Virus record (IMG/VR): IMGVR_UViG_3300044642_000074
Coordinates: 50,809-114,808 of that record
Strand: one strand, 5' to 3'
Length of the DNA: 64,000 nt
Source of the DNA: a virus
Position numbers and translations under genes: made by a program. The notes beneath the pieces are model-generated. The model did no database searches and was not told the origin of the DNA. It saw nothing but the letters and a program-made list of their open reading frames with translations. Positions 11,801-51,308 of this stretch are shown one piece after another. The number at the start of each line of letters is the position of its first letter. Position 1 is the stretch's first letter.

Positions 11801-14800
11801 ACATATCTAGCTGTGAACAAAGAGATTGCGGTGGTAGAACAGCATAAGCTTATCTACGGTCATCCAGTTATGTATAAAGATTTGGCTAAGCGTGCAAACG
11901 GTGCCAACTCTAACAAAGATGCTATTGTAGATAACCACGAGATTGTCAAGTGGATGGATCAGAACATGCCGCGTTTGGATGGCAAGAAGCGTAGTAGCAA
12001 TACTACACAGACATTTAAGAATATTTCTTTCAAGGATGTTAATACGGTATCTGAGTTTTATAAAGAGATAGCAGAAAACATGTATGCTTCTATGAAGGAA
12101 GACATGTCAAAAGATGCTGCAGAAAAACGTATTGGTGTTAAGTTTGACGCCAAGGGTAAGTTCAAAAACTTTATCCTTGATGACAAGAAAGGATTTACCG
12201 GAGAGATCAAGGCTTATCTTAACCTTAATGAGGCGGACGCTCAGGCGTATATCATGCCTGATCTTTATAGAGACATGTTATACTTGTCTTCTAAGATCAG
12301 TAAGAACCAGCTTCGTCAGTGGGAGTATGAAAGAGCCTACGAGGTGGTAGCAAGAAGCTCAAAGCGTAAGGACCACCCTGCATATAAAAACTACTCTAAG
12401 ATTTATACTAAGGAACAAATGGCTGAGTTTAGGAAGATTGTTGAGGCCGGAAGCCCTGGTATAGTTATGCAGCCACTCAAACCTCAGTACTTTGGTTATG
12501 CTAATAACTCAAGCCTGATGCAGACCGTGTTCCTTAAACACTCGGTACAACCTAAGTTCTACCGTCAGGTAGAGGGCAGTCAGTTTGAAAAACTTTATTT
12601 GGCTGCACAGAACAATCAGGTAGATATTGTAGGCTTTGAGTCTGGAGAGAAAGTAGGTAACATGCTTAACAGCAAGGGAGAGTTCTTGCCTATATATAAT
12701 ACAGCCGGTGAAATTAACATACCGGTTCAGTATGATCAGAACGGAAACACCCAGTCTGTAAACCTTCCTGACGGCATGCCGGTACAGGAATTGTTTACCC
12801 GTTACTATGGTATTCAGCAGGAAGTACCTGCTCTTTCTAAGAGCAAGGTTGTACGCGGTACCCAGGTAACCAAGCTGGTTATGAGTAACTTCAAGGTAGA
12901 TGGTAAGTTTACATCTGCTGAAGCAGAAGCTAAGGTTAATGAGTACAATAGTATTCTAAGACAAATGATCCGTTTGGGTAAAGAGGAGTTATTAGAAGAG
13001 CTGGGTATGCAGAGACTTGGTGATGGAAGCTATATTGTTGCTGACATTAATAAGATGGTAAGCATGCTCAGGGAAGAGTTGGAAAAGAGAGATCTTCCAA
13101 ACAATTTGATTGATGGCTTACAGGCTACACCAGATGGTAGCAGCCTTATGTATAAGTTTGACACGCTGGCTAACCGTAATAAGATTGACAATATCCTGAA
13201 CTCTATTGTAGATAGCAGGGTAATTTCAGATAAGATGTTTGGTAAGTCTGCCGTACAGGTAGCTTCTACAGGTTTTGAAGGAGCTGGTCGTACAATGGTT
13301 TACCTAAATAATGGTGTATACGAAGAGGTTGCTGAAAATGAACTGACCGATGAACAGCGTGCAAGTGTACAGACTACATCCAATGAACTTAAGTTCTACC
13401 GTAATGAAAACGGCAGGATTCAAGGTATGGAAGTATACATATCCTGGTTCTTTGACGGAGTTAAACCTGAAGATGTTGGTTTAAAACTGGTTAACGGTAT
13501 TTACCAGATTCCGGAAAACTTTGACATGCGTTTACTGGAAGCTATCGGTTTTCGTATTCCTACTCAAGGTATGAACTCTATTGAGAACATCATCATCAAA
13601 GGATTCCTACCTAAGGAAGCCGGTGATATGGTGGTAGTTCCATCTGAGATTGTAGGTAAGGCCGGATCTGACTTTGACATAGATAAGCTAAACATGTACC
13701 TGTCTAACTACTATGTATTAGACGGAAAGATTAACTACCTGCAAGACGGGTTGACTACAGAACAGCTTACTGAAATAGCCAAGAAAATATATGCTGAGAA
13801 TACTGACACAAGAGTAGAAACTAATGAGTTTATTAACTCTGTTTTTGAAGGAATACCTAATGATGAAACAGAATTTGTTCAGTCTTTTGTAAAGAGTTAT
13901 GAGAAGAAGAATCTGCAGAACAAGTTTAAGAAAGTAATGCAGGATCTTGTTTCTCTACCTGAGAACTATCGTCAGTTGGTTGTACCTAACGGTGCCGCTA
14001 CACTGAAGTCTCTAGCTTCTGAGATCAATGAACTTAAGGGTAGAGATGATGCTGAGTCTTCATTCCTGGCCCTAAGAAAGTTTATTCCTATGGCTGAGGT
14101 ACGCCAACGTTACCTTACCGGTAAAGCAATGGTGGGTATCGCTGCCCTCCAGACTACCTCTCATACTATGAGTCAGGTATCTAGTATCAGACTTACCGGT
14201 ACATACGATCCTAAATCACTGTACTATCTTTTTGAAGGTACCCGTAAAAAAGAGATCATTGTTCGTCTGCCACATAACCGTACTGAAAACGGTGATCTAT
14301 ATCTCTATGCAAAGAAAGATCAGAGCGGACGTTGGATATCAGAACTTCTGTCTGAGGCATTGACTGGTTTCGTGGATGCAGCAAAAGATCCGTTTGTATT
14401 TGAACTTAACCTTAGTCTTGGTACAGCTGGTACCTGGTTTTATCTACAGAAGTTAGGTGTACCTGTTCAGGATATAGCTTACCTATTCAACCAGCCAATT
14501 GTTGACCAGTACATGAAGGAAGAGGCTAAGAACCGTTCTTACTTCAAGAAAGCCAACGATGAGTCACTGAGCAAGTTTTTGCTGATGATGAAGGTAGCTG
14601 CTCCTTATATGGATAACGTTCCTTCGTTAAGGGGAACTTATGAGAAGATCAACAACCTTCTTTCTGAAATAGAAAAGTTTGAGGACGCAGATATTCCTTT
14701 CCAGCTTAAGAATCAGCAGATCATTGGATTCAGAAAACAGATCAAGCAGCTTCGCCAGAAGACTGCAGATGAGCTTGCTTCTCTTAGAGACGAGTCTAAG

Positions 14801-38200: not shown

Positions 38201-38473
38201 ATGGCAAAGAAGTTTTACGCCCAGAAGGATGTCCTGGGTTTTCCTATTCCTGGTACTATGATGAGTGGAGAAAAGGTTCCTGCCAACTTGATTGAGATTC
38301 CTGCACAGAATGTTGCTCCTGGAGCTGGTCAAGTAGCTGTACCACACCCTGGTGATCTTCGCTATTTCGTACGTAAGGACAAGAGTGGAAAGATCATCCC
38401 TAACTCACTGATTATCAGTTTAAAAAAGCCTGCTGGGGATGTTTATGAGTTTAAACTTATAAAGGCTAGCTAA
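38201..38473 (+). CDS. Conserved small phage protein, 90 aa
   Basis: Begins MAKKFYAQKDVLGFPIPGTMMSG and ends in a beta-rich segment (NSLIISLKKPAGDVYEFKLI). The strand-rich composition and the start MAKKFYAQ..FPIPGTM are like small conserved virion-associated proteins of Bacteroidota phages. First gene of the plus lysis/envelope arm. Function unknown; a head-decoration or head-fibre role is possible. Confidence 0.75.
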   Translation: MAKKFYAQKDVLGFPIPGTMMSGEKVPANLIEIPAQNVAPGAGQVAVPHPGDLRYFVRKDKSGKIIPNSLIISLKKPAGDVYEFKLIKAS

Positions 38474-38475
38474 TC

Positions 38476-38781
38476 ATGCAGAGAGAAAGTTCAGCTATAG
38501 CAGCATTTAAAGTCTGGGTTTTCCCTAGTCTTGTGTCTATTATAAGTCTGTTAATCTGGAATGACGTCAACGAGATAAAGGCTGATGTCAAGGCTCTTAT
38601 GGCCCAGTCTAACATTGATAAGACCAGGATTGATAATCTTGAGCGACAGGTTTACGGATCTAAGACTGCTAGTCTACCTGAGAAACCTGCTCAGAAGCCT
38701 CCGTTTTTGAATGAACTGTACGCAGTTCTACCGTCTCCGGAGAAGAAACATAAATATAAAAAGATACTATATGACTTTTAA
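38476..38781 (+). CDS. Small membrane protein with coiled coil (lysis region), 101 aa
   Basis: One hydrophobic N-terminal segment (FKVWVFPSLVSIISLLIW), then a coiled-coil helix (NEIKADVKALMAQSNIDKTRIDNLERQV) and a proline-rich tail. This N-in anchored layout resembles phage i-spanins or small tail/lysis proteins. It overlaps the next gene by 11 bp. Spanin function is inference from topology and neighbours. Confidence 0.68.
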   Translation: MQRESSAIAAFKVWVFPSLVSIISLLIWNDVNEIKADVKALMAQSNIDKTRIDNLERQVYGSKTASLPEKPAQKPPFLNELYAVLPSPEKKHKYKKILYDF

Positions 38782-39019
38782 ACAATGGATTCTAGATCTA
38801 TTCAAAGATGAGAGAGGTTCTACCTCGATCAAACCTGTTGTAGGTTTTATGGGGGCCTTGTTTCTCTGTATAACTCTTACTGCTAACTCTTTTACTCACG
38901 GTGATATTAAACCTTCTGATGCTCTTGTGGATGCTGTACTGATTATGACCTGTGTAGGTATTGGAGCAGACAGTGTAGATAAATTTAGCCACAAGAAAAA
39001 GAAAGAAGATGAAGCTTAG
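38771..39019 (+). CDS. Holin-like two-helix membrane protein, 82 aa
   Basis: MTFKQWILDLFKDERGSTSIKPVVGFMGALFLCITLTANSF gives helix one; DALVDAVLIMTCVGIGADSVDKF gives helix two; the tail is KKKKEDEA. Two helices, a short loop and a charged C terminus are typical of Bacteroidota phage holins (the ERGSTSxKPVxGF start is recurrent). I use the ATG overlapping the upstream gene's stop region, since an earlier start would lie deep within that gene in another frame. Confidence 0.68.
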   Translation: MTFKQWILDLFKDERGSTSIKPVVGFMGALFLCITLTANSFTHGDIKPSDALVDAVLIMTCVGIGADSVDKFSHKKKKEDEA

Positions 39020-39641
39020 TAAATATGCCATTATAGTTCTAGCAGTAATTGGTCTGATTATTTTATCCAGATTAGGTTGTAACAACGGTCTTGGGTTTTT
39101 TGATAAACCTACAGCAGACACTGTAGTTACTATTGATACTTTATGGCAAGAACATGATACAGTAATCTATAAAAAGGTACCTGTAAAAGAAATCATTTAC
39201 GACATAGATACTTTGCCTCCTCAGTATATTCCAGATACAAACTATGATAAGTTAAAAGAACAGTATGAGCTTCTTGTAAAAGAGCATGCTTCTAAAGTAA
39301 TTCAGTTTGATACACTTAGAATACCCCAGCTTAAAGGCGGATTTTATATAAAGGATACTGTTCAGTTTAATAAAATATCTGGAAGATCATTTGAAGCTGA
39401 TTATGTTATACCTGTTGTAAAAGAAACAATTACTATTACAAAAGAAACTCCTAAAAGGAATCAGCTATATATTGGAGGTGGTGTAAATACTGCTAAAACA
39501 TTTGTGCCTCAGTCACTAGAAGCGGGGCTTTTACTCAAAACTAAACGTGATCAGATAATGGGTGTAAAAGCCGGATCTGATATTAACGGTAATATAACAT
39601 ACGGCTTCCAGAGTTACTGGAAGATTGGATCTAAAAAATAA
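39009..39641 (+). CDS. Membrane-anchored envelope protein with beta-rich domain, 210 aa
   Basis: N-terminal anchor (YAIIVLAVIGLIILSRLGC, with a Cys that could be a lipobox-like site), a helical stalk (YDKLKEQYELLVKEHASK) and a C-terminal beta domain of short alternating strands (QLYIGGGVNTAKTFVPQSLEAG...GNITYGFQSYW). Found in a lysis cluster, a spanin-like role spanning the periplasm is possible. The family is not certain. Start overlaps the holin-like gene by 11 bp. Confidence 0.65.
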   Translation: MKLSKYAIIVLAVIGLIILSRLGCNNGLGFFDKPTADTVVTIDTLWQEHDTVIYKKVPVKEIIYDIDTLPPQYIPDTNYDKLKEQYELLVKEHASKVIQFDTLRIPQLKGGFYIKDTVQFNKISGRSFEADYVIPVVKETITITKETPKRNQLYIGGGVNTAKTFVPQSLEAGLLLKTKRDQIMGVKAGSDINGNITYGFQSYWKIGSKK

Positions 39642-39647
39642 ATAAAC

Positions 39648-39809
39648 ATGAAAAGTATCGTAAAGATGCTTCTTGGTCTGTTTAAGAAAAAAGTTTCTAA
39701 ACAGGTTGAAGAAGTTAAAGAAAAGGTTATGCCTGTAGAGGTAGCTCCTGCACAAGAAAAAAAGAAGAAGAAATATTATCATCCTAAGCCTAAGAAAGCT
39801 AATATCTAA
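39648..39809 (+). CDS. Small basic protein, 53 aa
   Basis: Reads MKSIVKMLLGLFKKKV then VEEVKEKVMPVEVAPAQ and a Lys-rich tail (EKKKKKYYHPKPKK). Amphipathic N-terminal helix and very basic C terminus. It fills the gap between the spanin-like and endolysin genes and has a TAA 14 bp before the endolysin start. Function unknown; possibly a membrane-active lysis peptide. Confidence 0.65.
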   Translation: MKSIVKMLLGLFKKKVSKQVEEVKEKVMPVEVAPAQEKKKKKYYHPKPKKANI

Positions 39810-39823
39810 TTAATCTGTATCCT

Positions 39824-40423
39824 ATGAATCTTGAAAAACTTAAAGGCCACGTGCCGGATTCTGTTATTGCACAGATTCCTGGTGTGATTGATAGCTTTGC
39901 TGTTAATACCCCACTTCGTTTGGCTCATTTTTTAGCTCAGTGTGGTCACGAGTCTGGTGGTTTCAGGCTTACGCAAGAGAATCTAAACTATTCAGCTAAA
40001 GGTCTTATGGGAATCTTCAAGAAGTATTTCCCTACAGAAGCTTTAGCTAATGCTTATGCACGTAAACCTGAAAAGATTGCTAACCGCGTTTATGGTTCAC
40101 GCATGGGTAATGGTCCCGAAGCTAGTGGTGAGGGTTACAAGTTCCGCGGTCGTGGTTATATTCAATTGACTGGTAAACAGAACTATACTGCATTTGATGC
40201 TACAGTACCTGAAAGTATTGTAGATAATCCAGACTTAGTGGCTACTAAATATCCTTTAGCTTCTGCTGCATGGTTCTGGAGCAAGAACGGTCTTAACACT
40301 CTTGCTGACAAAGGAGCTTCTGATATTAATGTTACTGCTATTACAAAGCGTGTAAACGGTGGTACAATCGGTTTGACAGATAGAATTAAACACTTCAAAG
40401 AATATCATAACCTGCTGGTATGA
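39824..40423 (+). CDS. GH19-type endolysin (chitinase-like muramidase), 199 aa
   Basis: AHFLAQCGHESGGFRLTQENLNYS contains the GH19 catalytic Glu (E43 in HESGGF), followed by NRVYGSRMGNG and the hallmark KFRGRGYIQLTGKQNY, ASAAWFWS and the C-terminal ITKRVNGGTIGLTDR. This is a standard phage GH19 lysozyme domain with no signal peptide, so it needs a holin to reach the cell wall. Full length for the family. It cleaves peptidoglycan at lysis. Confidence 0.93.
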   Translation: MNLEKLKGHVPDSVIAQIPGVIDSFAVNTPLRLAHFLAQCGHESGGFRLTQENLNYSAKGLMGIFKKYFPTEALANAYARKPEKIANRVYGSRMGNGPEASGEGYKFRGRGYIQLTGKQNYTAFDATVPESIVDNPDLVATKYPLASAAWFWSKNGLNTLADKGASDINVTAITKRVNGGTIGLTDRIKHFKEYHNLLV

Positions 40424-40463
40424 TAGGACATGTTATTAAAAACATACCTAAAAACTATAAGAT

Positions 40464-40598
40464 ATGGCTAAGGCCAAAGGCTCCAAAGCCGGAGAATCTA
40501 GAAAGGTCACCTTCGGTAAACGTAAAACAGGAAGAGCTGCTAAAAGCAGAGGACCTAAAGACAAAAAAGTCTCTAAGTACCAAGGACAGGGAAGATAA
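40464..40598 (+). CDS. Small, very basic conserved protein, 44 aa
   Basis: MAKAKGSKAGESRKVTF then GKRKTGRAAKSRGPKDK and KYQGQGR. The pattern VTFGKRKxGxAxKSxxxxxKxxxKYxGQGR is a recurrent small protein of Bacteroidota and their phages. It is in a different frame from a 62-codon ORF over the same bases, and this frame is preferred because of that pattern. Likely nucleic-acid binding. Confidence 0.8.
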   Translation: MAKAKGSKAGESRKVTFGKRKTGRAAKSRGPKDKKVSKYQGQGR

Positions 40599-40632
40599 TT
40601 GTTTATAAAAACCAACCTCTAAAACTTATACT

Positions 40633-41115
40633 ATGAATCTTAGGGGTTTTTTTATTGTATTATTTTCTTTTTTGTGTGTATCAGTATACTCACAAAATAT
40701 TTTTATTGATAGTGTCCGTAATAACATAGCTACTGGTCCACTAACAGCTAACAAAAATCTGAGTTTTGGTGTGAAGAATATTCTAGCCGAAGTACTTCAG
40801 GATAAAGGTTTGGACTTACTTCCAAAAAAACAAGAAGCAGAACTTAGTCTAGTAACTGAGATCTACTTTTTTGATATTACACAAACCAATGCAGGTGTAT
40901 CTGTTTTTAAAAAGCAGAGTAACACTACAGTAATGGGTTTAAAGGGTAGCCTTTATAAAAACGGGAAACTAGTTAGTTCTAAAAAAGTAGAAGAATCCTC
41001 TTCAGAGGTAGTGATGGCTAATCTGGTAATTCCCGAAGACGGAAAACCTAATCAGCAATCAGTTAGTAATGTTATAAAAAAAGCCTGTCAAGCTTTAATT
41101 GACAAACTTCTATGA
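40633..41115 (+). CDS. Secreted periplasmic or envelope protein, CsgG-like fold suspected, 160 aa
   Basis: Signal peptide MNLRGFFIVLFSFLCVSVYSQ, then a domain with GVKNILAEVLQDKGLDLLP, EAELSLVTEIYFFDIT and VFKKQSNTTVMGLKGSLYKNGK, and a helix IKKACQALIDKLL. The alternation of an N-terminal helix before EIYFFD and a strand pair resembles the CsgG/LpoB-type fold of the 253-aa protein three kb downstream. Periplasmic or outer-membrane location is predicted. The 4-bp overlap with the T9SS gene (ATGA) indicates co-expression. Confidence 0.65.
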   Translation: MNLRGFFIVLFSFLCVSVYSQNIFIDSVRNNIATGPLTANKNLSFGVKNILAEVLQDKGLDLLPKKQEAELSLVTEIYFFDITQTNAGVSVFKKQSNTTVMGLKGSLYKNGKLVSSKKVEESSSEVVMANLVIPEDGKPNQQSVSNVIKKACQALIDKLL

Positions 41116-43013
41116 AAAAACTTTTGCTTGCCTGCTTAGCTATAGTGTTTACTAGTTTGGGTTATTCTCAAACTATTGGTCATTTCCAACAGTTAGCTTC
41201 TGTTAAAAGAGGGGACACTTTAGATGTGGCCTGGTATTATCAACCAAGTGGTTCAGTTGATGTCAGAACATTTCAGGTAGATTTTCAGTTTAAAAAGCAT
41301 CTGTTTACTCACATAAGTACTACTATTGATACACCATATGTTACTGTTGGTAGACAACCGCAGCTTGGGTACAATCAGTTTAATAACTTTAAGTATGACA
41401 ACTACGTAAACGGAAACTATACTTATGGAGCTGATACTAACTGGGCAGTTGGACGTAACTATTTAACACTTCCTGCTGGCAGTGGTTTTGGTACTGGTAA
41501 TGGATATATTATCCATAATAAGTTTAAGATTAATGAAGTACAGTCTAACTTTGTATCTGATACAATTACTGTTAACTGGGCTCGTCTCTTTAAAGTAGAT
41601 GGAACTACTATTGGAGATAACGTAGCAACTCTTACAAATAAGAAGCTTGCTATTTTCTTACAGGGTAACTTGACTATCTCAGGAAAGATCTGGATGGGGT
41701 CTAATACCGGCTTGCCAACGATTATTGCATATGCTGATAATACAGGTATTGAGGTTTCTCGTACAGTTCCTGCAGCCAATGGTACATATACTCTGACAAA
41801 TATAGAACAGAATACTAAGTATAAGATAAAGGTTGTTTTCTCAAGAGATAGTCTAATCACAATGCGTGATCGTGCAGTAACTATTGCTGATGCTGTGAAG
41901 ACTTATAATGAATTTACCGGAGCTAATGTTAGCCAGACATTCCCAAGAACTTTCTTGACAAACGGTCTTGCTTATTTGATTGCAGATGTCAGCCGAAACG
42001 GAGTCTTAGATGGTGGTGATCCTTATGGAATTTATGCTTCTGTATCAGGTCTAAGACCAATTGATACTGCACGTCTTGTAAATGTTTTCTTAAAGAATGA
42101 GTTTGATTCTTTGGCCATAGCAGCAAATCAGTGGACTAGTTGGGCAAGTAATGTAGACAAGGGTCTGTTTGTATTTGACTCTGTAGGTACTGTTAATAAT
42201 ACTAACGTAGACATTAAATACTTCTTATTGGGTGACGTAGACCGCTCACATTCTTCACCTGTGTTTAATGCACAAGGTCAGCAAGTTGCCCGTACAATCT
42301 ATAAGGGAAATATAAATGTTAGAATCCCAGATACTTATACAAACTCTAGTGATCCTCTCTATGTACCCTTCAATGTAAGTTATGCTAGTTATAAAAATAC
42401 AGGGTTACAGTTTGAGATGAAGTATGATCCTGCTGTTGTTAGGTTTGACCAGATTCAGTCTAACATAGATGGTCCATGGCTTCAATATGTGACTAACGAT
42501 AGTATTGCTGGTATCATCAGATTTGGTGGTATGAACAACCAAACAACCGGATATTTAAGTGGTGACTTTACTCCTTATAAGCTAAAGTTTTCTCCTAAAA
42601 ATCTAGGAACAAACATAACAAGTTACGTATATGTTAGACGTCTTATGGATGCTAGTGATGAGAACGGTGATCATTATAACATCGTACTTCAGTCAGATAG
42701 AATTGTTCTTAGCTACCGTATGAACGGTGCTACCTCTGTCTTTACAAATATGGAGCCTACTGTAAATGTTAGTCCTAATCCTAATACAGGTCAGTTTGAA
42801 CTAGTGGTATTTGTACCGCGTAACTCAACTATGAAAGCCGTGGTGTATGATATGAACGGAAAATTGATTAGAGAGTTAGGCAACTTTAAGACTGAAGATG
42901 CTGAGCAAAAATTTCGTAAAACCGTACCTACAGGGGACCTTCCTGCCGGTATGTATAATATAGTACTCTTTGATAACCGTAAGAGATATACTACTAAAAT
43001 GATTAAATCCTAA
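41112..43013 (+). CDS. Secreted T9SS-sorted dockerin/cohesin-like protein, 633 aa
   Basis: Signal peptide MKKLLLACLAIVFTSLGYSQ. A beta-rich domain follows; a carboxypeptidase-regulatory-like strand set near 185-280; a dockerin-like Ca motif ADVSRNGVLDGGD at about 291-303; LGDVDRSHSS near 373-382; and a cohesin-like region about 400-520 (LQFEMKYDPAVVRFDQIQ). Residues about 553-633 (VNVSPNPNTGQF ... VVYDMNGKLIREL ... LPAGMYNIVLFD ... KMIKS) are a type A T9SS C-terminal sorting domain. The protein should cross the outer membrane through the host type IX system and be anchored or released. Remarkable cargo for a phage. Confidence 0.88.
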   Translation: MKKLLLACLAIVFTSLGYSQTIGHFQQLASVKRGDTLDVAWYYQPSGSVDVRTFQVDFQFKKHLFTHISTTIDTPYVTVGRQPQLGYNQFNNFKYDNYVNGNYTYGADTNWAVGRNYLTLPAGSGFGTGNGYIIHNKFKINEVQSNFVSDTITVNWARLFKVDGTTIGDNVATLTNKKLAIFLQGNLTISGKIWMGSNTGLPTIIAYADNTGIEVSRTVPAANGTYTLTNIEQNTKYKIKVVFSRDSLITMRDRAVTIADAVKTYNEFTGANVSQTFPRTFLTNGLAYLIADVSRNGVLDGGDPYGIYASVSGLRPIDTARLVNVFLKNEFDSLAIAANQWTSWASNVDKGLFVFDSVGTVNNTNVDIKYFLLGDVDRSHSSPVFNAQGQQVARTIYKGNINVRIPDTYTNSSDPLYVPFNVSYASYKNTGLQFEMKYDPAVVRFDQIQSNIDGPWLQYVTNDSIAGIIRFGGMNNQTTGYLSGDFTPYKLKFSPKNLGTNITSYVYVRRLMDASDENGDHYNIVLQSDRIVLSYRMNGATSVFTNMEPTVNVSPNPNTGQFELVVFVPRNSTMKAVVYDMNGKLIRELGNFKTEDAEQKFRKTVPTGDLPAGMYNIVLFDNRKRYTTKMIKS

Positions 43014-43017
43014 TACT

Positions 43018-43335
43018 ATGTCAGAAGAACAAGTTCAACAAGAAGAAGGTACCTGGTCAAGTCTTAAGAAGACTATTGTAGGTACACTTGCTACAGTTAT
43101 TACTGGTGGTGGAGCTTATGTAGCTACCACATTATTTGGTGGAGGTGACGCTGCTCAACCTGCAGCTCCTGCTCAGCCAAGTATCATCATTAATAATACA
43201 CAGCAACAACAGCAGCAACAGGCTGCCGGTAAGACCGTTATAATTAAAGAGGCAGCTCCTGCCGCAGCTAAACCTGCAGAAGAGAAACCTAAGCCTAAGA
43301 AAGATGACTGGGCTAAAGAAGAACCAAAGTGGTAA
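43018..43335 (+). CDS. Small membrane protein with Gln/Ala/Pro linker, 105 aa
   Basis: One hydrophobic helix (IVGTLATVITGGGAYVATTLFGGG) then low-complexity: APAQPSIIINNTQQQQQQQAAG and Pro/Ala/Lys repeats ending DDWAKEEPKW. Function unknown. Its position between the T9SS protein and the holin-like gene suggests a lysis or envelope function. Confidence 0.72.
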   Translation: MSEEQVQQEEGTWSSLKKTIVGTLATVITGGGAYVATTLFGGGDAAQPAAPAQPSIIINNTQQQQQQQAAGKTVIIKEAAPAAAKPAEEKPKPKKDDWAKEEPKW

Positions 43336-43351
43336 TTTATAAACAAACTAT

Positions 43352-43969
43352 ATGACTAAGGAAAAAACAAACGAAACTGGTTTTCAAGCTTTATTGAACG
43401 CTATGATGAAAAGACGCTGGTTTATTACAGCGTTAGTACTAGGATCTTTTATGTTGATAATCGGTGGTATATTCTCCGCTATCACATATAGCACTCCGAT
43501 TCAGGGTGAATGGAAAGAACTTTTACTACTCTTACTTGGTGCCTTTATTGGTAGTTATGGTAAGATCATTGACTACTGGTTTTCTGATACAGACAAAGAC
43601 AAGATGCTTGTCCAGAAGATGGATGAGGAAGACGGTGTTAGTCTGTCTCATACCAACGACATGAAAGAGTCAGCTAAACCTGCTAGTACCAGTCTTGTAG
43701 ACCCAACCTTTGCCGCATTTGCCGCAAAAGCTGCGGAGAATAAAGAACCAATCACCGCAGAAACAAAATCTGCTGAAGCTGCACCTGCTAAAAAAGGTGT
43801 AGAGATTGATGAAGATGGAGACGGTGTTATGGACGGTCTTGACTTTGATGGTGACGGTAAGATTGACGAATACTTTGCACACAGACAGTGTGAGCATATT
43901 TGGGGTGACGCTGATGGAGACGGTGATGAAGAGTGCCTTAAGTGTGGCAAGATAAAAGATCCGGAATAA
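43352..43969 (+). CDS. Holin-like protein with Ca-loop and zinc-ribbon tail, 205 aa
   Basis: Two transmembrane helices at about 24-45 (FITALVLGSFMLIIGGIFSAI) and 55-77 (KELLLLLLGAFIGSYGKIIDYWF). The second reads LLLGAFIGSYGKIIDYWFSD, typical of phage holins. The cytoplasmic tail contains three DxDGDG Ca-loop motifs (IDEDGDGVMDG, LDFDGDGKID, GDADGDGDEE) and a CxH...CxxC zinc-like cluster (C180, H182, C195, C198). Holin fused to an EF-hand-like tail is unusual. Probably a lysis timing protein. Confidence 0.75.
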   Translation: MTKEKTNETGFQALLNAMMKRRWFITALVLGSFMLIIGGIFSAITYSTPIQGEWKELLLLLLGAFIGSYGKIIDYWFSDTDKDKMLVQKMDEEDGVSLSHTNDMKESAKPASTSLVDPTFAAFAAKAAENKEPITAETKSAEAAPAKKGVEIDEDGDGVMDGLDFDGDGKIDEYFAHRQCEHIWGDADGDGDEECLKCGKIKDPE

Positions 43970-44002
43970 TATTTTTCACTTAATCCTGTAACATGGAAGC
44001 TG

Positions 44003-44224
44003 ATGAACAAAAGAAACAGACTAAAGATTTTACGTTCCTCTCGGGATATAAGCTTGATGTTGGCAATGTTCTTTTTGCCATTAGGTTACGATCTTTTATT
44101 CAAGACGCTCTTAAACATCACGGGCAGTTTTTGGGTTACCGATATCATATTTTATTGTATATCAGGCTTATTCTGGCTGCTTTACTTTTTATTATCCAAG
44201 ACTTTAAAGTCTAATAATGTATGA
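44003..44224 (+). CDS. Small two-helix membrane protein, 73 aa
   Basis: Two strong transmembrane helices (DISLMLAMFFLPLGYDLLF and TDIIFYCISGLFWLLYFLLS) with a basic N terminus MNKRNRLKILRSSR. Another ORF overlaps in frame +1 but lacks this pattern, so I choose this frame. The TGA overlaps the ATG of the CsgG-like gene, so they are translationally coupled. Confidence 0.75.
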   Translation: MNKRNRLKILRSSRDISLMLAMFFLPLGYDLLFKTLLNITGSFWVTDIIFYCISGLFWLLYFLLSKTLKSNNV

Positions 44225-44982
44225 AAACTACCAAAGAAAATCTAAGAATAATCCTATTGGTTGGTTTATGGTTCTTGTTTATGTTTTTAATCAGTTCTGT
44301 ACTAACTAAGTGTACTGCTCAAACTGTAGGATCTACAAAAACAGAACAATACCAAGCTGGTTTTGAAAAGAAAGTAAACATTGATTCCTTGATGGACTAT
44401 GACGGTCCAACTATTCCTGTTCAGTTGTTGAATATAGGAATCAGTGAAGAGGTGTATGCTATATACCCAGAACTTAAAGACAAACGTGTCGGTCTGGGCG
44501 TTACTAATATCATTGTTGAGTATCTGGAGGAAACCGGTAGGTTCACCTTTACAGAAGATAAGACAGAGATCAAGAACCGTATGGTAAAACAGTTTCAGGC
44601 ATCTGCCTCAGGTTTTACCGAGAATAAGCTTGACGGTAAAGGCAAGATAAAACTTGCCCGTTATTTTGTTTACATAGAAGTGTATGACTTCTCTGTATCT
44701 GTAGATGAGGAGTTGAAGCTTAAAGATGGTGTTAAAGAAACTATGGTTACACGCCTTGGTCTACAAGCCAAGTTTGTAGATGCTGAAACAGGAGAATACT
44801 TCACTGCCTCAGGTCTTGGAGAAGCTAAAACAGTTAGAGAGCTTACTCTTCTTAATGATGATAACCTCTCTGAGATTAAGTTCAACCAATCAACGATTGG
44901 TATCACTACTAAGAAAGCTCTGGAAACAGCGGCTTCAAGAGTAGTTCTGCGTATGATAAAGAAGCAGATCTTTAAAAACTAG
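44221..44982 (+). CDS. CsgG-like curli-secretion-type protein, 253 aa
   Basis: Hydrophobic N terminus (IILLVGLWFLFMFLISSVLTKC, possible lipoprotein or signal anchor with Cys), then GLGVTNIIVEYLEETGRFTFTED followed by KNRMVKQFQ, a helix-strand pattern matching CsgG: N-terminal GGxxxxxxL, 'GRFxVxE' and the KxxxxARYFVYIEVYDFS strand, 'KARYFVYIEVYDFSVS' and a C-terminal long helix. CsgG forms an outer-membrane pore for amyloid export. This may be a pore or a regulator. Coupled to the gene before it and the barrel gene after it. Confidence 0.68.
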   Translation: MKTTKENLRIILLVGLWFLFMFLISSVLTKCTAQTVGSTKTEQYQAGFEKKVNIDSLMDYDGPTIPVQLLNIGISEEVYAIYPELKDKRVGLGVTNIIVEYLEETGRFTFTEDKTEIKNRMVKQFQASASGFTENKLDGKGKIKLARYFVYIEVYDFSVSVDEELKLKDGVKETMVTRLGLQAKFVDAETGEYFTASGLGEAKTVRELTLLNDDNLSEIKFNQSTIGITTKKALETAASRVVLRMIKKQIFKN

Positions 44983-46367
44983 TGTGGCACCGCGCCTTTT
45001 ATATCATATTATTGCTTGCTTTTACTTTGACTGCAAGAAGTCAGGTGTTGACGTATCCGTTTACAGATCCTTGTACAAAGGTCGTGACTACGTTTACAAT
45101 ACCTGTAACGGGTAATACTACTATTTACTTTCTGGGAAAATCAGCCTCGTTTACTGCAGCAGATGTCAGTAGCGGGGCTTTTGCTGTTTGGATCAATACT
45201 ACTTATACTGACTATAGAAAGATCTCACCGTGTGGTCAGCAATCTGGGCAGGTTACACAGAATCAGATTACCAGTCAGATAATAGGTAACACTGTACAAA
45301 GCGTGGTGGGGTCTATAATGAGTTCTGCACAGAGTCAGGCTACTTCATCAGTAGTTTCTAGTGGAACAGGTTCATCTGGAGGTGCATCTAATGCAAGCTC
45401 TAAGGATAATAAAGATTCTAAATCTAATAAAAATGGGAATTCTTCTAATAGCTCTACTAATAGTTCTTCTAATAATCAGTCTGAAAGTTCGACAAGCTCT
45501 TCTAGTTCTGGGGAAACTACTTCTAGTAATGGTGGCTCTAGCAGTAGCAATAGCAGTGGCTCATCTTCATCTAATAAAAAGTCTTCTACAGAAGAGTCTC
45601 AAGAAGTTGCAGCATCAACCACGATGAGTGCTGATGCGTCTGCTGATAAATCAGGAGGGGATAACAGTTCTTCTTCAAAAGGTAGTGGTAAATCAGGCGG
45701 TAAAGGTGGAGTTAATAATCCAATAATTGTTTCATCTGACTTTACTACGGCACAGAACCTGGATAAAACTTTTACTCCCATCTTGAATCTTTCTATGAGT
45801 CAGTCATCTTTGACTGGTAAGACAAGTTGGGGAATGACCGGGATGATTTGGTTTAACTTTAAGCAGTTTGCTCTTAGTGGTAAGTATACCAAAATGAGTG
45901 TAAACAAGAGCGGTAAGCTGAAGTATATATCTAATGTTGCTCTCACTGCAGTGTATAGCTACGGAAACATCTTGGGTTTTATTGGGTACAGTGGTATTCT
46001 AAATGCCGGCAAGTATGGTGTTACAGGTTTCAACTTATCAGGTGCAGCAAGTGTAATATCTGAAGATGATAATACATTTTTTAGTCCTTCTATCACTGCG
46101 TTCTATACTAAGCCTTTTTACTTAAATAAACGAAAGAGGCTCACTATTTCACCTGAACTGTATATTATTTCCACACCGCTAATTTATTCTACTAAAGATA
46201 AAGTGACTCAAAGTGACAGAACTTTTAGTTTCTTTGCAGGAAGTGGTTTTGACTATCAGATAAGCAAGCGGTTTAAAGTTAATCTAAACTATAAGCTAAA
46301 TGCTAGTACAAACCGTGAGTTTCCTATTCTAAGCTTCTTTTTAATAGGAAGTAAAGTAAACCTATGA
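44982..46367 (+). CDS. Outer-membrane beta-barrel with Ser-rich linker, 461 aa
   Basis: GTG start overlapping the upstream stop (TAGTG). Signal peptide (AFYIILLLAFTLTARSQ), then a short domain with two Cys (DPCTKVVTTF, SPCGQQSG), a 120-residue Ser/Asn/Gly-rich low-complexity linker (residues about 115-240), and a C-terminal region of alternating strands (KTSWGMTGMIWFNFKQFALSGKYTKMS ... FKVNLNYKLNASTNREFP) ending SFFLIGSKVNL with the terminal aromatic/hydrophobic pattern of outer-membrane barrels. Partner for the CsgG-like protein is inferred. Confidence 0.78.
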   Translation: MWHRAFYIILLLAFTLTARSQVLTYPFTDPCTKVVTTFTIPVTGNTTIYFLGKSASFTAADVSSGAFAVWINTTYTDYRKISPCGQQSGQVTQNQITSQIIGNTVQSVVGSIMSSAQSQATSSVVSSGTGSSGGASNASSKDNKDSKSNKNGNSSNSSTNSSSNNQSESSTSSSSSGETTSSNGGSSSSNSSGSSSSNKKSSTEESQEVAASTTMSADASADKSGGDNSSSSKGSGKSGGKGGVNNPIIVSSDFTTAQNLDKTFTPILNLSMSQSSLTGKTSWGMTGMIWFNFKQFALSGKYTKMSVNKSGKLKYISNVALTAVYSYGNILGFIGYSGILNAGKYGVTGFNLSGAASVISEDDNTFFSPSITAFYTKPFYLNKRKRLTISPELYIISTPLIYSTKDKVTQSDRTFSFFAGSGFDYQISKRFKVNLNYKLNASTNREFPILSFFLIGSKVNL

Positions 46368-47809
46368 GAACCCTACTTGTCATATTATTTGGCTTGATGA
46401 CTTTGTGTACACAGGCTCAATCAATCACAGCTCCTCCTGGTAGAACATACCAGGTTAGCGTGACTGGGCAAGACGCAAGCGGTTTTGTTATTAGTGGGTA
46501 CAATACACAGACTTTGTTAACTTCTATAGGATTAGTTAATCCACCTGCAGGTGTATCATTTAGTATTACAACTACTACAGGTTTATCTTTTACAACAGGT
46601 TATAACTCTTGGACTAATCAAACCCGCGTGAGTTTTACTGGTACGCAAGCTAACATAAACAATGCGTTAGCTTCTTTAAAAATCAATACTGGATCTACAG
46701 TGGGAAATGTCCAGATATCTGTGTCTACTACAGAAAACCCATCCGGTTACTTTTATAATCCAATCAACGGTCACTTTTACAGACCTATATCTGCTGCTGC
46801 TACATATGATAATGCTAAGTCTTTGTCTGCTGGTCAGATATTTAAAGGTCAGACTGGCTATCTTGTAACAATCACTTCATCTAATGAAGAGTCTTTTATT
46901 ATAACAAATGTACCTCAGAGTAATATATGGTTTGCTCTTACAGATCGAGCTCAAGAAGGTTACTGGCGTATAGATGCAGGTCCTGAAAACGGCACTTTAA
47001 TAAAAACAGCAAACGGTCAGCTTAATGGTAACATTTCAGGCCAGTATAATAACTGGTGTGCCGGTGAACCCAATAACGCTGGTGACGAAGACTTTGCTGT
47101 AACCAAGTGGGGTGGGGGCAGTTGTTGGAATGACTTACCAGGAACTTCTAGTTGGTCTAATCCATATATAGTTGAGTTTGGTACTTGGACTAATCCAGCA
47201 GATGCTACTTTTACAGGATTTTATACAGCAAACACTACTAATACAGTAGCCGTAACTAACACTCTTACAGGAACTGTAAGTATACCCGCGGGATTAACGT
47301 CAAGACCGTTACTTACACTTTATAGAGTAGTAAACGGATCAGATGTATTGGTTGATTATAGAACAGTTAACACTGATGGTACATTTACTTTTACTCTTCC
47401 TAATCAGAACTCTACGTATAAACTAGTACCCTCACTTGCTATACAGGGTGTTACTTCTGTTGACTTTACACCAACCTTAAGTGAATGTTTGAATATTAAC
47501 ACTCCTAATAACATTAGTCCAGGTCTTTCTTTAACAGGGACCAAGCAGTGGAAAGCTGCAGACGTAAATAAGAATGGTATATTAGACCTAGGGGATGCTT
47601 TTTTGATCCTGGCACATACTACTGGATTAAGATTAATTACAGATGTCTTATGGTTTAACCCATCGGACTATGATAGTATAACAAGATCTAATTATTCTAG
47701 TATAAATCCAGTTAGCTTGTTTACTATAAATGTAGCTACTAGTAATGTTACACAGAATATAAAGTTTTGTATACTGGGTGATGTGAATTTATCCCACAGC
47801 TCAAACTAA
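46364..47809 (+). CDS. Secreted C-type-lectin protein with dockerin-like repeat, 481 aa
   Basis: Signal peptide MRTLLVILFGLMTLCTQAQS. A C-type lectin-like domain about 140-275 shows GHFYRPISAAATYDNAK, YLVTITSSNEESFI, WFALTDRAQEGYWRI, NNWCAGEPNNAGDEDF and SCWNDLPGTSSWSNPYIVEF. EPN and WND are the Ca/sugar-binding signatures. A carboxypeptidase-regulatory-like strand set and a dockerin motif ADVNKNGILDLGDAF (about 398-412) follow. The protein stops abruptly after LGDVNLSHSSN, whereas the paralogous 633-aa protein continues from the same motif into cohesin-like and T9SS domains. It is thus a paralog lacking the sorting domain. Predicted surface or secreted sugar-binding protein. Confidence 0.82.
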   Translation: MRTLLVILFGLMTLCTQAQSITAPPGRTYQVSVTGQDASGFVISGYNTQTLLTSIGLVNPPAGVSFSITTTTGLSFTTGYNSWTNQTRVSFTGTQANINNALASLKINTGSTVGNVQISVSTTENPSGYFYNPINGHFYRPISAAATYDNAKSLSAGQIFKGQTGYLVTITSSNEESFIITNVPQSNIWFALTDRAQEGYWRIDAGPENGTLIKTANGQLNGNISGQYNNWCAGEPNNAGDEDFAVTKWGGGSCWNDLPGTSSWSNPYIVEFGTWTNPADATFTGFYTANTTNTVAVTNTLTGTVSIPAGLTSRPLLTLYRVVNGSDVLVDYRTVNTDGTFTFTLPNQNSTYKLVPSLAIQGVTSVDFTPTLSECLNINTPNNISPGLSLTGTKQWKAADVNKNGILDLGDAFLILAHTTGLRLITDVLWFNPSDYDSITRSNYSSINPVSLFTINVATSNVTQNIKFCILGDVNLSHSSN

Positions 47810-47817
47810 AAAAGAAA

Positions 47818-47856
47818 AAGGTCTCAGGACTAGTCTATTTACTAATCCTGAGATAC
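47818..47856. terminator. Intrinsic terminator at convergence
   Basis: TCTCAGGA-CTAGT ... ACTAA-TCCTGAGA stem after the lectin gene, between plus and minus arms; A-rich on one side, T-poor tail on the other. Probably ends the plus envelope operon. Confidence 0.7.
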
Positions 47857-47899: not shown

Positions 47900-48004
47900 C
47901 TACATATAACCTCTGCCTGACTTAGTCATGCATTCTATTCTTTTTTCTTCTACTAGCTTGAGAAAAGCTATGAACTTTTTAGACCACTGTATTACCTTCT
48001 TCAT
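47900..48004 (-). CDS. Tiny basic protein, 34 aa (possible)
   Basis: ATG inside the 3' end of the VWA gene in another frame gives MKKVIQWSKKFIAFLKLV then EEKRIECMTKSGRGYM. It is basic with an amphipathic helix and ends in GRGYM. It covers most of an otherwise empty gap. Such short helices ending with a Gly-rich tail occur in phages, but the evidence is only coding-like composition and position. Confidence 0.45.
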   Translation of the reverse strand: MKKVIQWSKKFIAFLKLVEEKRIECMTKSGRGYM

Positions 48005-49487
48005 TTACTTTAGATATTTTATTGCCGTCAAAGACTATTACTTGTCCACGTTGAGAGTATTGCTTGATAACATCACCTTCAAAGTGGTTAAATCTAGCTC
48101 CTTCTAAGCCTATAAAGAAAGCTTTGTCTGTAAATACTCTGCAACGATCTTCTGCATCTGTAATAACTAGTGCGTTACGATCGTTTCTCTGGATACTACT
48201 TACAGCTGCGTCAATTGATGTACCGCCACAACAGTCTATCATAGAGATAGATATCAGATCATTGCGGTATTTCTTAACGCGGGTATCAAAGAGATATACA
48301 TCGTTTAGCATATCCATTTCTTTTAGCTTAGCTATCATAGATTTTGCAAAGTCTATACGGCTAATAGAATGACCATCATCAGTGCGGGACCCGCAACCGG
48401 ATGACATGGATCCGGATATGTCAACGTATACATCTATCTTACCTACAGCTTTAGTATCCTTTATTTGGATATCTTCTGCAAAGATCTTACGCAGTTTTGG
48501 ATGTAGTAGTTCATAGTCTTCAAGACCAGATACATCTTGAGCATTGAATAGATCCTCGTAGGTAGTGATCTTTCTGGATGAGAAATAACTAGCACTTTTG
48601 TCTAAGATCTTCTTGAGTTTTTCTTTCAATGCACCCATAGAGAGCTTGATATTAGCGAGTCTACCTGCTACTTGACGCATATAGTCAGGGCTTAGCTTAC
48701 TTGCTTCACCACCACCAGATTGGTTAGATTCATCAAACATTTTTTCTTGAATATCCTGTTCAAGATTTTCATCCATCATCTTACAAGTGTCTTGTGCATC
48801 CTGCATAGCACGATCCAGAGAGTTCTTACTAGTCTGGCTACCGAATATTTTGTCCATAGCTTTATCAGCGTCATCGTTGTTAAACTCTGAATCACCGTTT
48901 AACCCATTCATCAAGTCTTGTGCAGCATTCGGATCAACATACTCCATCTGGGTATATTGCATCAGATAGTACATCATCATGTTACGGGTAAATATGCTGG
49001 ATTTAAGGTTTGCACTTTCAGTCATGATCTTACCAACAGGATTGTTTGCTTTTTCCAGAAACTTAAACCTGGTATGGTTAGCATCAGTCCGCTCTTCAAA
49101 CTCAAGTTTATCTATCTTGTTGTAATACATCTTGAAGATATCATACTTAAGATGCTTAGGAAACTTATCATAGTTTTCTCTAAGCTTAGTATAAAACTTA
49201 CTAAAGTCTGGCTTCTTGTCATCTTGTATTTTTGCATACGCAGATGTCTTGCTAAAGTAGTCAAACTCTTTTTTGACTTTGGACTGATCTTGAAGTGATC
49301 CTTCTACTATACGAGAGATCTTACCTTCGTCTATATAGTGGACATAAGGTTTGATCAGGTCAGCTTTCTTATAAAAGTTTAGCTTACCAAATAAACCCTG
49401 GCTCTCTTTGTAGTGAGTTTGTATCTCACCTTTCTTTACTTTTTCAAGAATGGTATATACATTCTTGTATTGTTTACTTGAAGCCAT
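47979..49487 (-). CDS. VWA-domain protein (CobT-like partner of MoxR ATPase), 502 aa
   Basis: C-terminal VWA domain with a complete MIDAS: DISGSM (D356, S358, S360), GGTSID (T423) and ITDAEDRC. The N-terminal two thirds are helical with acidic, Gly-poor low complexity (MNGLNGDSEFNNDDADKAMD). The adjacent upstream gene is a MoxR/CobS-like AAA+ ATPase, and the pair forms the classic MoxR-VWA chaperone system, also seen as CobS/CobT-like pairs in other large phages. Probably used to remodel a phage or host complex. Confidence 0.85.
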   Translation of the reverse strand: MASSKQYKNVYTILEKVKKGEIQTHYKESQGLFGKLNFYKKADLIKPYVHYIDEGKISRIVEGSLQDQSKVKKEFDYFSKTSAYAKIQDDKKPDFSKFYTKLRENYDKFPKHLKYDIFKMYYNKIDKLEFEERTDANHTRFKFLEKANNPVGKIMTESANLKSSIFTRNMMMYYLMQYTQMEYVDPNAAQDLMNGLNGDSEFNNDDADKAMDKIFGSQTSKNSLDRAMQDAQDTCKMMDENLEQDIQEKMFDESNQSGGGEASKLSPDYMRQVAGRLANIKLSMGALKEKLKKILDKSASYFSSRKITTYEDLFNAQDVSGLEDYELLHPKLRKIFAEDIQIKDTKAVGKIDVYVDISGSMSSGCGSRTDDGHSISRIDFAKSMIAKLKEMDMLNDVYLFDTRVKKYRNDLISISMIDCCGGTSIDAAVSSIQRNDRNALVITDAEDRCRVFTDKAFFIGLEGARFNHFEGDVIKQYSQRGQVIVFDGNKISKVNEEGNTVV

Positions 49488-49579
49488 GTTAAAATTGTAT
49501 TAGCAGGTCATGAAGTTCTTGAAGAGTGGCCGGATTGGTTACCGGCACACTATCAAGATTAGGACTACTATGACCTATT

Positions 49580-50908
49580 TTAAAAAGTATTAGATACTGA
49601 AACTTCTTCCATCAAAGTGTCAAACTCTTCTGCAGACTGGTAGTCTTTACGTGCAGGGTGAGAAGATAAGATGTATTGCATAGACAGTTCGATCTCTTCT
49701 ACCTGAGTTTCATCCATGATACCACGGGAAACATAAGTATTAATAAGAGACTCTACGTCTGCAATAGCTAGTTCCAGTTGTTCATTGGTAGTATAGCTGT
49801 GCAGCATTTCTACCTTAGACATGACAGCTTTCACTTCTGGGCTCATCAGTTTATTCTGAAGTTCAGAACCGGCTGACTGACCAATCATGATCTGTGCTGT
49901 TTTTACAAGGGCTTTGTCCACACTGATGTCCCAGATATAACTTACTGCTTTAGTAAGTTTAGGTACAAATGTCAGTGTACGGTCAGAGCTGTGTTGGTAA
50001 CCAACCTCAAGATATTTCTCCAGTTTGTTTACTGGAATCTCTACTTTATCGATCTCAGCGTTATTGGGTACACCAATGCTGAATTTCTCACGGTAGTTAC
50101 GTGCACCTTTGTTGTAGTACTTTACAAGCTCACCGGCAGATACGCGGTTAACTGTCATCTTAAGCATGAAACGGTCCCAGAAAGGAGAGTCTGCTTCATC
50201 CTTAGGGATTTCATTACAGGTAGCAATGAATAGCTTCCATTTACAAGGAAGTTTGTGCTTGCCGTTAAATAAGAACTTCTCGTTCATTACACCCAGCATA
50301 GCGTTACGAATAGCTGAGCTGGCTTTATCTACTTCGTTAATAATAACGATCTCTGCATCTGCAATGGGAGCTGAAAGCTCATACTTGTTCTCGGTAAATA
50401 ACTTACCTAAGTCCGGCATACCCTTGATTTCAGAAGCTTTGGTACCTTCATCAGTCTCGAGGATATAGATCTTGTTAGCAAAGTCCTGGGCAGTCATCTT
50501 ACCATCTTTGTTAAGCCACGCTTTTGCGTACTCAATAACAGTTTTTGTTTTTGCTACACCTGGTTCACCTACTAATAAGCAAGGTAGACCTGTAGATTCT
50601 GCCAGGGCTAACATTTTAAATACTTCTTCCTTGTTAATCAAAGAAGTTTCAATGGTACGTACCTCTTGGGTAGTTTTTTTAGTGATAGTCTTCACTTTAG
50701 ACATGTTTACTTTGTTTGTAATGTTAGGACTTGGATTTACTTGTGTCTGCACAGGTTGCTGTGCCATGACGTTACTTGTTGGGCTTATGTGTTTTACCCA
50801 TCGTTGGATGCCGTTATAGTTCTTGGTAATCCACCAATTACCGTCGTTACCTCTGCGTATAGTGCCTTCTTTAAATATAGTAGCACTTTCTGTTGGACTC
50901 TGTCTCAT
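49580..50908 (-). CDS. MoxR-type AAA+ ATPase, 442 aa
   Basis: Walker A GEPGVAKTK (G114 to K120), Walker B EIVIINEVDKAS with the acidic/Asp pair, sensor 1 LFIATCNE, and an Arg finger near FWDRFMLKM; this is the MoxR/CobS AAA_5 layout. N-terminal residues about 12-38 (GTIRRGNDGNWWITKNYNG...RWVKH) form a separate small domain. I use the ATG one base after the upstream stop; the longer ORF from further upstream would overlap the whole 132-aa gene. Likely partner of the downstream VWA protein. Confidence 0.88.
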   Translation of the reverse strand: MRQSPTESATIFKEGTIRRGNDGNWWITKNYNGIQRWVKHISPTSNVMAQQPVQTQVNPSPNITNKVNMSKVKTITKKTTQEVRTIETSLINKEEVFKMLALAESTGLPCLLVGEPGVAKTKTVIEYAKAWLNKDGKMTAQDFANKIYILETDEGTKASEIKGMPDLGKLFTENKYELSAPIADAEIVIINEVDKASSAIRNAMLGVMNEKFLFNGKHKLPCKWKLFIATCNEIPKDEADSPFWDRFMLKMTVNRVSAGELVKYYNKGARNYREKFSIGVPNNAEIDKVEIPVNKLEKYLEVGYQHSSDRTLTFVPKLTKAVSYIWDISVDKALVKTAQIMIGQSAGSELQNKLMSPEVKAVMSKVEMLHSYTTNEQLELAIADVESLINTYVSRGIMDETQVEEIELSMQYILSSHPARKDYQSAEEFDTLMEEVSVSNTF

Positions 50909-50909
50909 A

Positions 50910-51308
50910 TTAGAGGCTGGCGAAAGCAGCAAGCTCGTCTTCTGCTGTAGCAGATGTTTCTCCATTACTTTCTTTGTGCTCTGGTAAAGTACTTCCGCTT
51001 GAGATGGTACTGCTTGTATCAAAGCTAAGTATGCGTTCCAAAGACTCATCAGTCTTTGATCCGTCAGAGGATAAGGTGGTTGCTGCTCTTTCATTCTTAG
51101 TGTCGTCAATAATGTTAAATACTGTGATGTTGGTCTCTGCATCTTTAAGAGCAGGATGCTTACGGATCATAACAATCTGCTGATCTTTTGCATTGTACTT
51201 GTCTTGGATACTTCCATATCCTACGTCATCACGTTTTAGCCAAGTCAGGCCATTGTCGAGGTCTTCAAGGATCTGTGATACATACAGATCTACTTTGTTT
51301 ACTGCCAT
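50910..51308 (-). CDS. Hypothetical acidic protein, 132 aa
   Basis: Short ordered N-terminal domain (DLYVSQILEDLDNGLTWLKRDDVGYGSIQDKYN) then an acidic, Ser/Thr-rich tail with SSDGSKTDESLERI. It ends one base before the MoxR start. Possibly an adaptor for the MoxR-VWA pair; this is inference from position. Confidence 0.7.
   Translation of the reverse strand: MAVNKVDLYVSQILEDLDNGLTWLKRDDVGYGSIQDKYNAKDQQIVMIRKHPALKDAETNITVFNIIDDTKNERAATTLSSDGSKTDESLERILSFDTSSTISSGSTLPEHKESNGETSATAEDELAAFASL

Follow-up and report, generated by a model that had tools for sequence, protein, structure and literature searches.

A conserved operon of Bacteroidota phages encoding a predicted CsgG-fold protein, a putative outer-membrane barrel and a probable surface scaffold

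Phage-borne modules of the curli, or type VIII secretion system, kind have been published for SAR11 and OM43 phages, and the roles proposed for them include aggregation ("sibling capture"), exclusion, import and a pinholin function (PMC7029224, PMC9599517, PMC9004378). In the T4-like marine Bacteroidetes virus TARA_ERS488589_N000003, curli-annotated genes led to the proposal that infected cells adhere (PMC7198788). When we compared E. coli CsgG with 50,697 phage records, it recovered Pelagibacter and Methylophilales phages along with one short Salmonella record. The current study concerns an operon of different make-up, which lies in a 64,000-nucleotide stretch of viral DNA, hereafter the window, corresponding to bases 50809-114808 of the 114,808-base record IMGVR_UViG_3300044642_000074. 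Its eight tightly packed plus-strand genes, referred to as A-H, occupy window positions 40633-47809 directly downstream of an endolysin gene of the glycoside hydrolase 19 (GH19) type, and their predicted products include a CsgG-fold protein (F), an outer-membrane barrel (G), a cohesin-bearing scaffold (B) and a C-type lectin (H). With a probability of roughly 0.5, we read the operon as an export and display apparatus that the phage encodes and deploys late in infection in the outer membrane of its Bacteroidota host. An earlier sequence-only reading of the window knew of no phage system of this composition. This seems to hold for the operon as a unit, none of the same make-up having been found in a search that covered mainly the openly accessible literature, but phage carriage of a CsgG-type module had already been published.

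The operon is part of a plus-strand run at 38201-47809 without a large gap, which includes the endolysin (39824-40423; PHROG 181 at 7e-70, Pfam GH19 at 1.5e-9), a 62-amino-acid open reading frame (ORF) and then A-H. Overlaps of 4 bp (A/B), 4 bp (E/F), 1 bp (F/G, TAGTG) and 4 bp (G/H) join its genes; across other loci, the 4-bp A/B overlap recurs in 53/74 and the G/H overlap in 33/33. The ORFs, strand, coordinates, overlaps and lysis-arm location given by the sequence-only reading were all confirmed. Its gene list passed over C (43018-43335), which is among the most conserved members.

It is evident that these genes travel together. A scan of viral contigs with F yielded at least 597 relatives, from which 80 F loci were kept, gene presence being called with hidden Markov models (HMMs). 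All 80 encode a B-type protein; 79 have C, 79 have G, 77 have A and 52 have D. Of 80 loci fetched with G, 77 contain F, and each of the other three starts at a contig end. Those A loci without F or G mostly end too early, or belong to a group ordered A-B-H-G-...-F, in which F would lie past the fetched end. Among the 237 loci fetched by F, A or G, many of which are redundant and some of which may be fragmentary viral records, A-B-C-F-G are kept together in nearly all that have room for them, which exceeds chance; they are typically arranged as A-B-(lipoprotein)-C-(D)-F-G-(H). Unrelated occurrence of the genes across phages, the outcome that the sequence-only reading held would speak against it, is clearly not what is seen; given the linkage of A-B-C-F-G across loci, the genes constitute one co-inherited unit.

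The operon is common to hundreds of Bacteroidota phages from two unrelated lineages. Among 21 long records with F, a crAss-like capsid protein occurs in six and the T4-type capsid protein Gp23 in 10, including the cultured Flavobacterium phage immuto, whereas none has both and five could not be typed. The same six crAss-like records also have the protein encoded at 605-2821 of the 114,808-base record, which was taken as terminase by position. A module specific to crAss-like phages was thus ruled out, as Gp23-type phages carry it too. The capsid protein of the window itself is 21-25% identical to those of crAss-like phages (cr10_1, cr56_1, cr4_1 and an Azobacteroides phage) and 28% identical to that of one Leptolyngbya phage record. 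Although the capsid proteins of the two groups have no match to each other, F is 65-91% identical across most relatives (57% in immuto), and in the F tree neither capsid group is a single clade; the F of the window clusters with the Gp23 phages, although this placement is not firmly supported. Therefore, the unit has probably passed between phage lineages. In bacteria, F was detected on two contigs among 84,980 species genomes in a pattern-limited scan and, by HMM, in one of 295 genomes of a single bacterial class, on a contig also holding B. Its occurrence in unrelated capsid lineages and near absence from the searched bacterial genomes suggest that the unit is specific to phages and strongly selected. 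Among phage records, the F search matched only immuto isolates, and tblastn with A and G found no cultured phage. The sorting domain in B described below, together with the host of immuto (Flavobacterium sp. LMO8), indicates that the host of the window phage is most likely one of the Bacteroidota.

F (plus strand, 44221-44982) is an exported protein of 253 amino acids and the most conserved member of the operon. A search of 350,542 PDB chains with its AlphaFold2 model (mean confidence score, pLDDT, 68) returned CsgG as all 19 best matches (E 1e-7 to 3e-6), followed by FlgT, GNA1162 and PelC, which belong to the same fold class. The wider CsgG-family profile aligns to F at 45% over 147 columns, and LpoB is a sub-threshold NCBIfam match, while comparison with a two-sequence curli CsgG profile failed (0.1%). 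The CsgG family model PF03783 had no match in 35 F members or seven phage records, with control genomes positive, and a viral fold search with F gave one distant annotated CsgG and otherwise recombinase-type noise. The description of F as CsgG-like therefore holds by fold, but no sequence family model finds the protein. By the modeled fold of F and its own probable task, the module probably works like a CsgG-type system.

G (461 amino acids; plus strand, 44982-46367) has a small N-terminal domain with a conserved Cys pair, a long helix, a Ser-rich linker and a 12-strand barrel. Its moderate-confidence model places an outer-membrane barrel at residues 248-460 behind a disordered linker, consistent with the barrel and Ser-rich linker named in the sequence-only reading. 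The best PDB match is FapF (1.3e-6), with the sugar porins KdgM (2.7e-6) and NanC close behind. These porins, as well as the position of the immuto copy next to ribonucleotide reductase (RNR) and nuclease genes, might suggest an uptake channel, in which the barrel and the CsgG-like protein import nutrients while lectin or cohesin catches polysaccharide. However, the module is without a SusD-type binding lipoprotein or a TonB-dependent receptor, and by fold class F and G resemble exporters no less closely, so that we consider uptake quite improbable. Several variations occur around G. In two loci (L025:8716-10953 and L031:8708-11025), a short second G-like protein of 258-259 amino acids precedes the full-length one. 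An exported DNA/RNA endonuclease, NUC1-like in immuto, lies in or beside the module, often directly before or after G (L013:8970-9584, L020:10295-10918, L033:8917-9534 and L002:9935-10513). One group of loci encodes a lipase-like protein with a GHSLGAAMA motif after G and ahead of the endolysin (L013:11009-11788, L027:6170-6952 and L033:11051-11827).

When A-H were scanned against Pfam, PHROGs and NCBIfam, only domains of B and H scored above threshold. B (633 amino acids; plus strand, 41112-43013) contains a signal peptide, a dockerin-like segment, a cohesin and a type IX secretion system (T9SS) type A sorting domain (TIGR04183 / PF18962; Pfam 3e-8; NCBIfam 2e-9, 37.3 bits vs a cut-off of 23). 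The sorting domain ends B in 159 loci, a separate lipoprotein is present in 41, neither in 16 and both in none, although many loci are near-copies and these are not independent counts. In the 41 lipoprotein loci, B stops after the cohesin and the next gene encodes a lipoprotein of ~120-130 amino acids, the second half of which aligns to the T9SS sorting domain of B (86% probability, E 5e-6). T9SS anchoring as a universal feature was ruled out on account of these loci. The lipoproteins begin with Cys followed by acidic residues (CSDLE, CEKFE, CADVE), which resembles the surface export signal of Bacteroidetes, SDDFE in F. johnsoniae (PMC5080379). This fused-or-split pattern argues that B has to be held at the membrane or cell surface. 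It also implies that A-B-C-F-G form the core, with the lectin and the sorting domain as options.

H (481 amino acids; plus strand, 46364-47809) is exported and carries a C-type lectin domain and a dockerin-like C-terminal segment. Its Lectin_C domain scores 24.2 bits against a cut-off of 22.6 (best relative, 3e-15); both the T9SS-sorted protein and the lectin of the sequence-only reading are accordingly recovered above cut-off, the former in Pfam and NCBIfam alike. EPN and WND motifs are present in 62 of 64 distinct H sequences. In C-type lectins this motif pair marks a Ca-dependent mannose-type site, and its intact state predicts such a site in H. For a candidate cohesin-dockerin pairing of B with H, a cohesin was found in 12 of 26 B relatives and Dockerin_1 in one of 13 H relatives only. 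The lectin is present in 40/45 sorting-domain loci vs 2/32 lipoprotein loci, and this rarity ruled it out as a core part. Surface display with a predicted mannose-type lectin would also suit superinfection exclusion, whereby lectin, scaffold and barrel cover or crowd receptor glycans and block adsorption of further phages, or of the phage's own progeny meeting debris, as also proposed for pelagiphage curli (PMC9599517). Three A relatives match the surface-exclusion lipoprotein TraT, but only weakly (best 0.012), and many loci are without the lectin. Simple exclusion proteins are usually single small genes, whereas the module is a seven-gene apparatus. Exclusion thus strikes us as possible, albeit rather unlikely.

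The remaining members are small. A (160 amino acids; plus strand, 40633-41115) is exported and weakly CsgG/YajG-like. It has no family match itself, whereas 16 of 38 A relatives match Lipoprotein_16 (best 9e-5), and its profile matches that of F at 65-74% probability, with a common FNQ-S-KK motif near the C-terminus. The CsgG-like character once assigned to A is accordingly retained only in this weak form. C (105 amino acids; plus strand, 43018-43335) lacks a signal peptide; its sequence comprises a segment of moderate hydrophobicity, a stretch rich in Q/N and a tail rich in P/K/E. The Q/N-rich stretch, IIINNTQQQQQQQ in the window and NNNTNQQKQQSNNNN in immuto, is of a type known from amyloid-prone proteins, and it is followed by a C-terminal EEPKW conserved in most C relatives. 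D (plus strand, 43352-43969) and E (73 amino acids, with close relatives only; plus strand, 44003-44224) are predicted membrane proteins. We do not retain the holin-like label of the sequence-only reading for either, as they have hydrophobic segments only and no holin family match in Pfam or PHROGs, nor do they match any other family there. The Cys/His-containing tail of D combines an Asp-rich DxDxDG repeat with a C-x2-H...C-x2-C pattern, resembling a small metal-binding tail, which is unusual in a membrane protein of such size. Weak single matches were dismissed as composition or chance (pectate lyase for A, TiaS_FLD for F, Zot-like and Herpes UL4 for C, DDHD for G), and PDB sequence searches with the F, A, G and B profiles returned nothing meaningful.

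Using a crude calling rule of our own, signal-peptide-like N-termini were found in 82/82 F, 68/69 G and 109/115 B/H proteins, as well as in most A proteins, vs 68/773 other ORFs. Judged by these signals, the products should leave the cytoplasm and are unlikely virion parts, which points to the host envelope as their location, away from the virion. C-type-lectin folds do occur in some phage receptor-binding proteins, and B, H or G could in principle be tail or fiber proteins. Yet nearly all relatives of F, B, G and H start with signal peptides, which, like the T9SS sorting domain, route their products out of the cytoplasm, the site of virion assembly; a virion role is therefore very improbable.

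In 50 of the 80 F loci, the module has a same-strand endolysin as a near neighbor, which precedes it in 27 and follows it in 23, the distance often being 30-190 bp; 20 loci with ample flank have none nearby. Its presence on both sides suggests repeated origins of the association and frequent co-expression of the module with lysis genes. A lysis accessory would be compatible with this proximity, with the holin-sized and endolysin genes in the same strand run of the window, and with the pinholin idea proposed for CsgGF of Melnitz (PMC9004378); F and G would then breach or destabilize the outer membrane when the cell lyses, replacing a spanin or acting as a timing pore, with the surface proteins as passengers. 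However, endolysin-free loci exist, lysis requires neither a cohesin scaffold nor a lectin, and B, being kept in 80/80 F loci, is no passenger. We therefore regard a lysis accessory as unlikely.

Returning to the export and display apparatus, the gene set, its linkage, the export signals and the domains and folds predicted by sequence or model suggest how it might operate. F most likely assembles into a ring, located either at the outer membrane or immediately below, and G, with its barrel, periplasmic stalk and flexible linker, is most likely a pore or anchor working in contact with F. A, smaller but of the fold class of F, may assist them. The cargo would be a surface adhesin built on scaffold B and held at the surface by its own sorting domain, with the host T9SS doing the work; in other phages, the separate lipoprotein with a similar domain would hold it. 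Mainly in the T9SS version, the Ca-dependent mannose-type site of H could grip glycans of the same or a neighboring cell. Late in infection, the likely outcome would be that infected cells, or what is left of them, stick to neighbors or polysaccharide. The purpose may be aggregation, receptor masking or lysis.

Several observations weigh against this reading. Neither CsgE, CsgF nor a curlin-repeat family is found in A-H at the Pfam and NCBIfam thresholds, which very remote homologs could escape. The N-terminal lipidated cysteine is not conserved in the F alignment, the signal peptides ending in AQ, and as it matches no CsgG sequence model and shows neither the lipid cysteine nor curli partners, the module is not classed as curli. 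Confidence in the F model is moderate, and the modeled strands might fall short of crossing the membrane. For G, the modeled FapF match is hardly better than those to sugar porins. The lectin is absent from most lipoprotein-version loci. Late expression is in some doubt as well, given that in immuto the module comes after RNR and nuclease genes. Accordingly, the surface adhesion or secretion apparatus first proposed is in keeping with the CsgG-like protein, barrel, cohesin, sorting domain and lectin, but the last two are not universal. More tentatively, and with less assurance than for the apparatus itself, the operon might represent a new class of phage envelope machine, in which a ring of CsgG fold works together with a FapF-like barrel to export a modular adhesin and display it, the host T9SS or surface-lipoprotein route being borrowed for anchoring. 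Such a machine would be traded as a unit between crAss-like and T4-type phages and make cells sticky before burst. If the export and display reading is true, a widespread operon of environmental Bacteroidota phages, among them crAss-like ones, would remodel the surface of its dying host by means of host T9SS or lipoprotein export plus a phage-made channel.

As for the genomic setting, a small two-segment membrane protein of holin size (family TM7; plus strand, 38711-39019) is encoded upstream of the endolysin, and its relatives in other loci lie between D and F. It is followed by a 210-amino-acid protein with an N-terminal export or anchor segment (plus strand, 39009-39641), which is possibly spanin-like. 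A scan for sigma-70 promoters gave no more sites than shuffled sequence. A 13-bp hairpin after H (47822-47853), scored as the terminator of the convergent minus-strand gene, likely also ends the plus-strand run. Convergent to the module, the minus strand at 47979-51142 encodes a 520-amino-acid MoxR-type ATPase and a 502-amino-acid protein whose DxSGSMS motif is of the metal-binding von Willebrand-like type, a pair that adjoins the module in about 8-10 other loci. Elsewhere in the window, a single ORF of 4603 amino acids (2807-16618) is possibly the giant multi-domain protein of crAss-like phages.

The key features of the operon can be compared with several known systems. Like the pelagiphage and Melnitz curli modules, it is carried by phages and encodes a CsgG-fold protein alongside other products bound for export, in hosts without the genes, and similar roles can be proposed. 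In those modules, however, CsgG is recognizable by sequence and is accompanied by CsgF and curli-type repeats, whereas F is not recognizable in this way and is accompanied by a 12-strand barrel, a scaffold of the cohesin/T9SS kind, small membrane proteins and a lectin. The parallel to TARA_ERS488589_N000003 is that this virus, too, is a T4-like phage with Bacteroidetes as predicted hosts, its genes being curli A, G and F by its authors' annotation. The modeled barrel of G, preceded by a helix and flexible linker, is similar to that of the functional-amyloid exporter FapF; unlike in Fap, no Fap fiber proteins were recognized in the module, and other 12-strand porins score almost as well. F shares its fold class with the CsgG-like periplasmic proteins PelC, HfaB and LpoB, but the module has no Pel, holdfast or penicillin-binding protein partner genes. 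The closest cultured counterpart is immuto gp013-gp019 (NC_055915), where a lectin, a cohesin protein, C, F (gp017, 57%), a probable G (gp018) and A lie in one run. Its order differs from that of the window, it sits beside RNR and replication genes, and its members were annotated piecemeal as hypothetical, lectin or cohesin proteins. As cultured immuto phages carry a version of the unit, the role of phage CsgG-type modules becomes directly testable.

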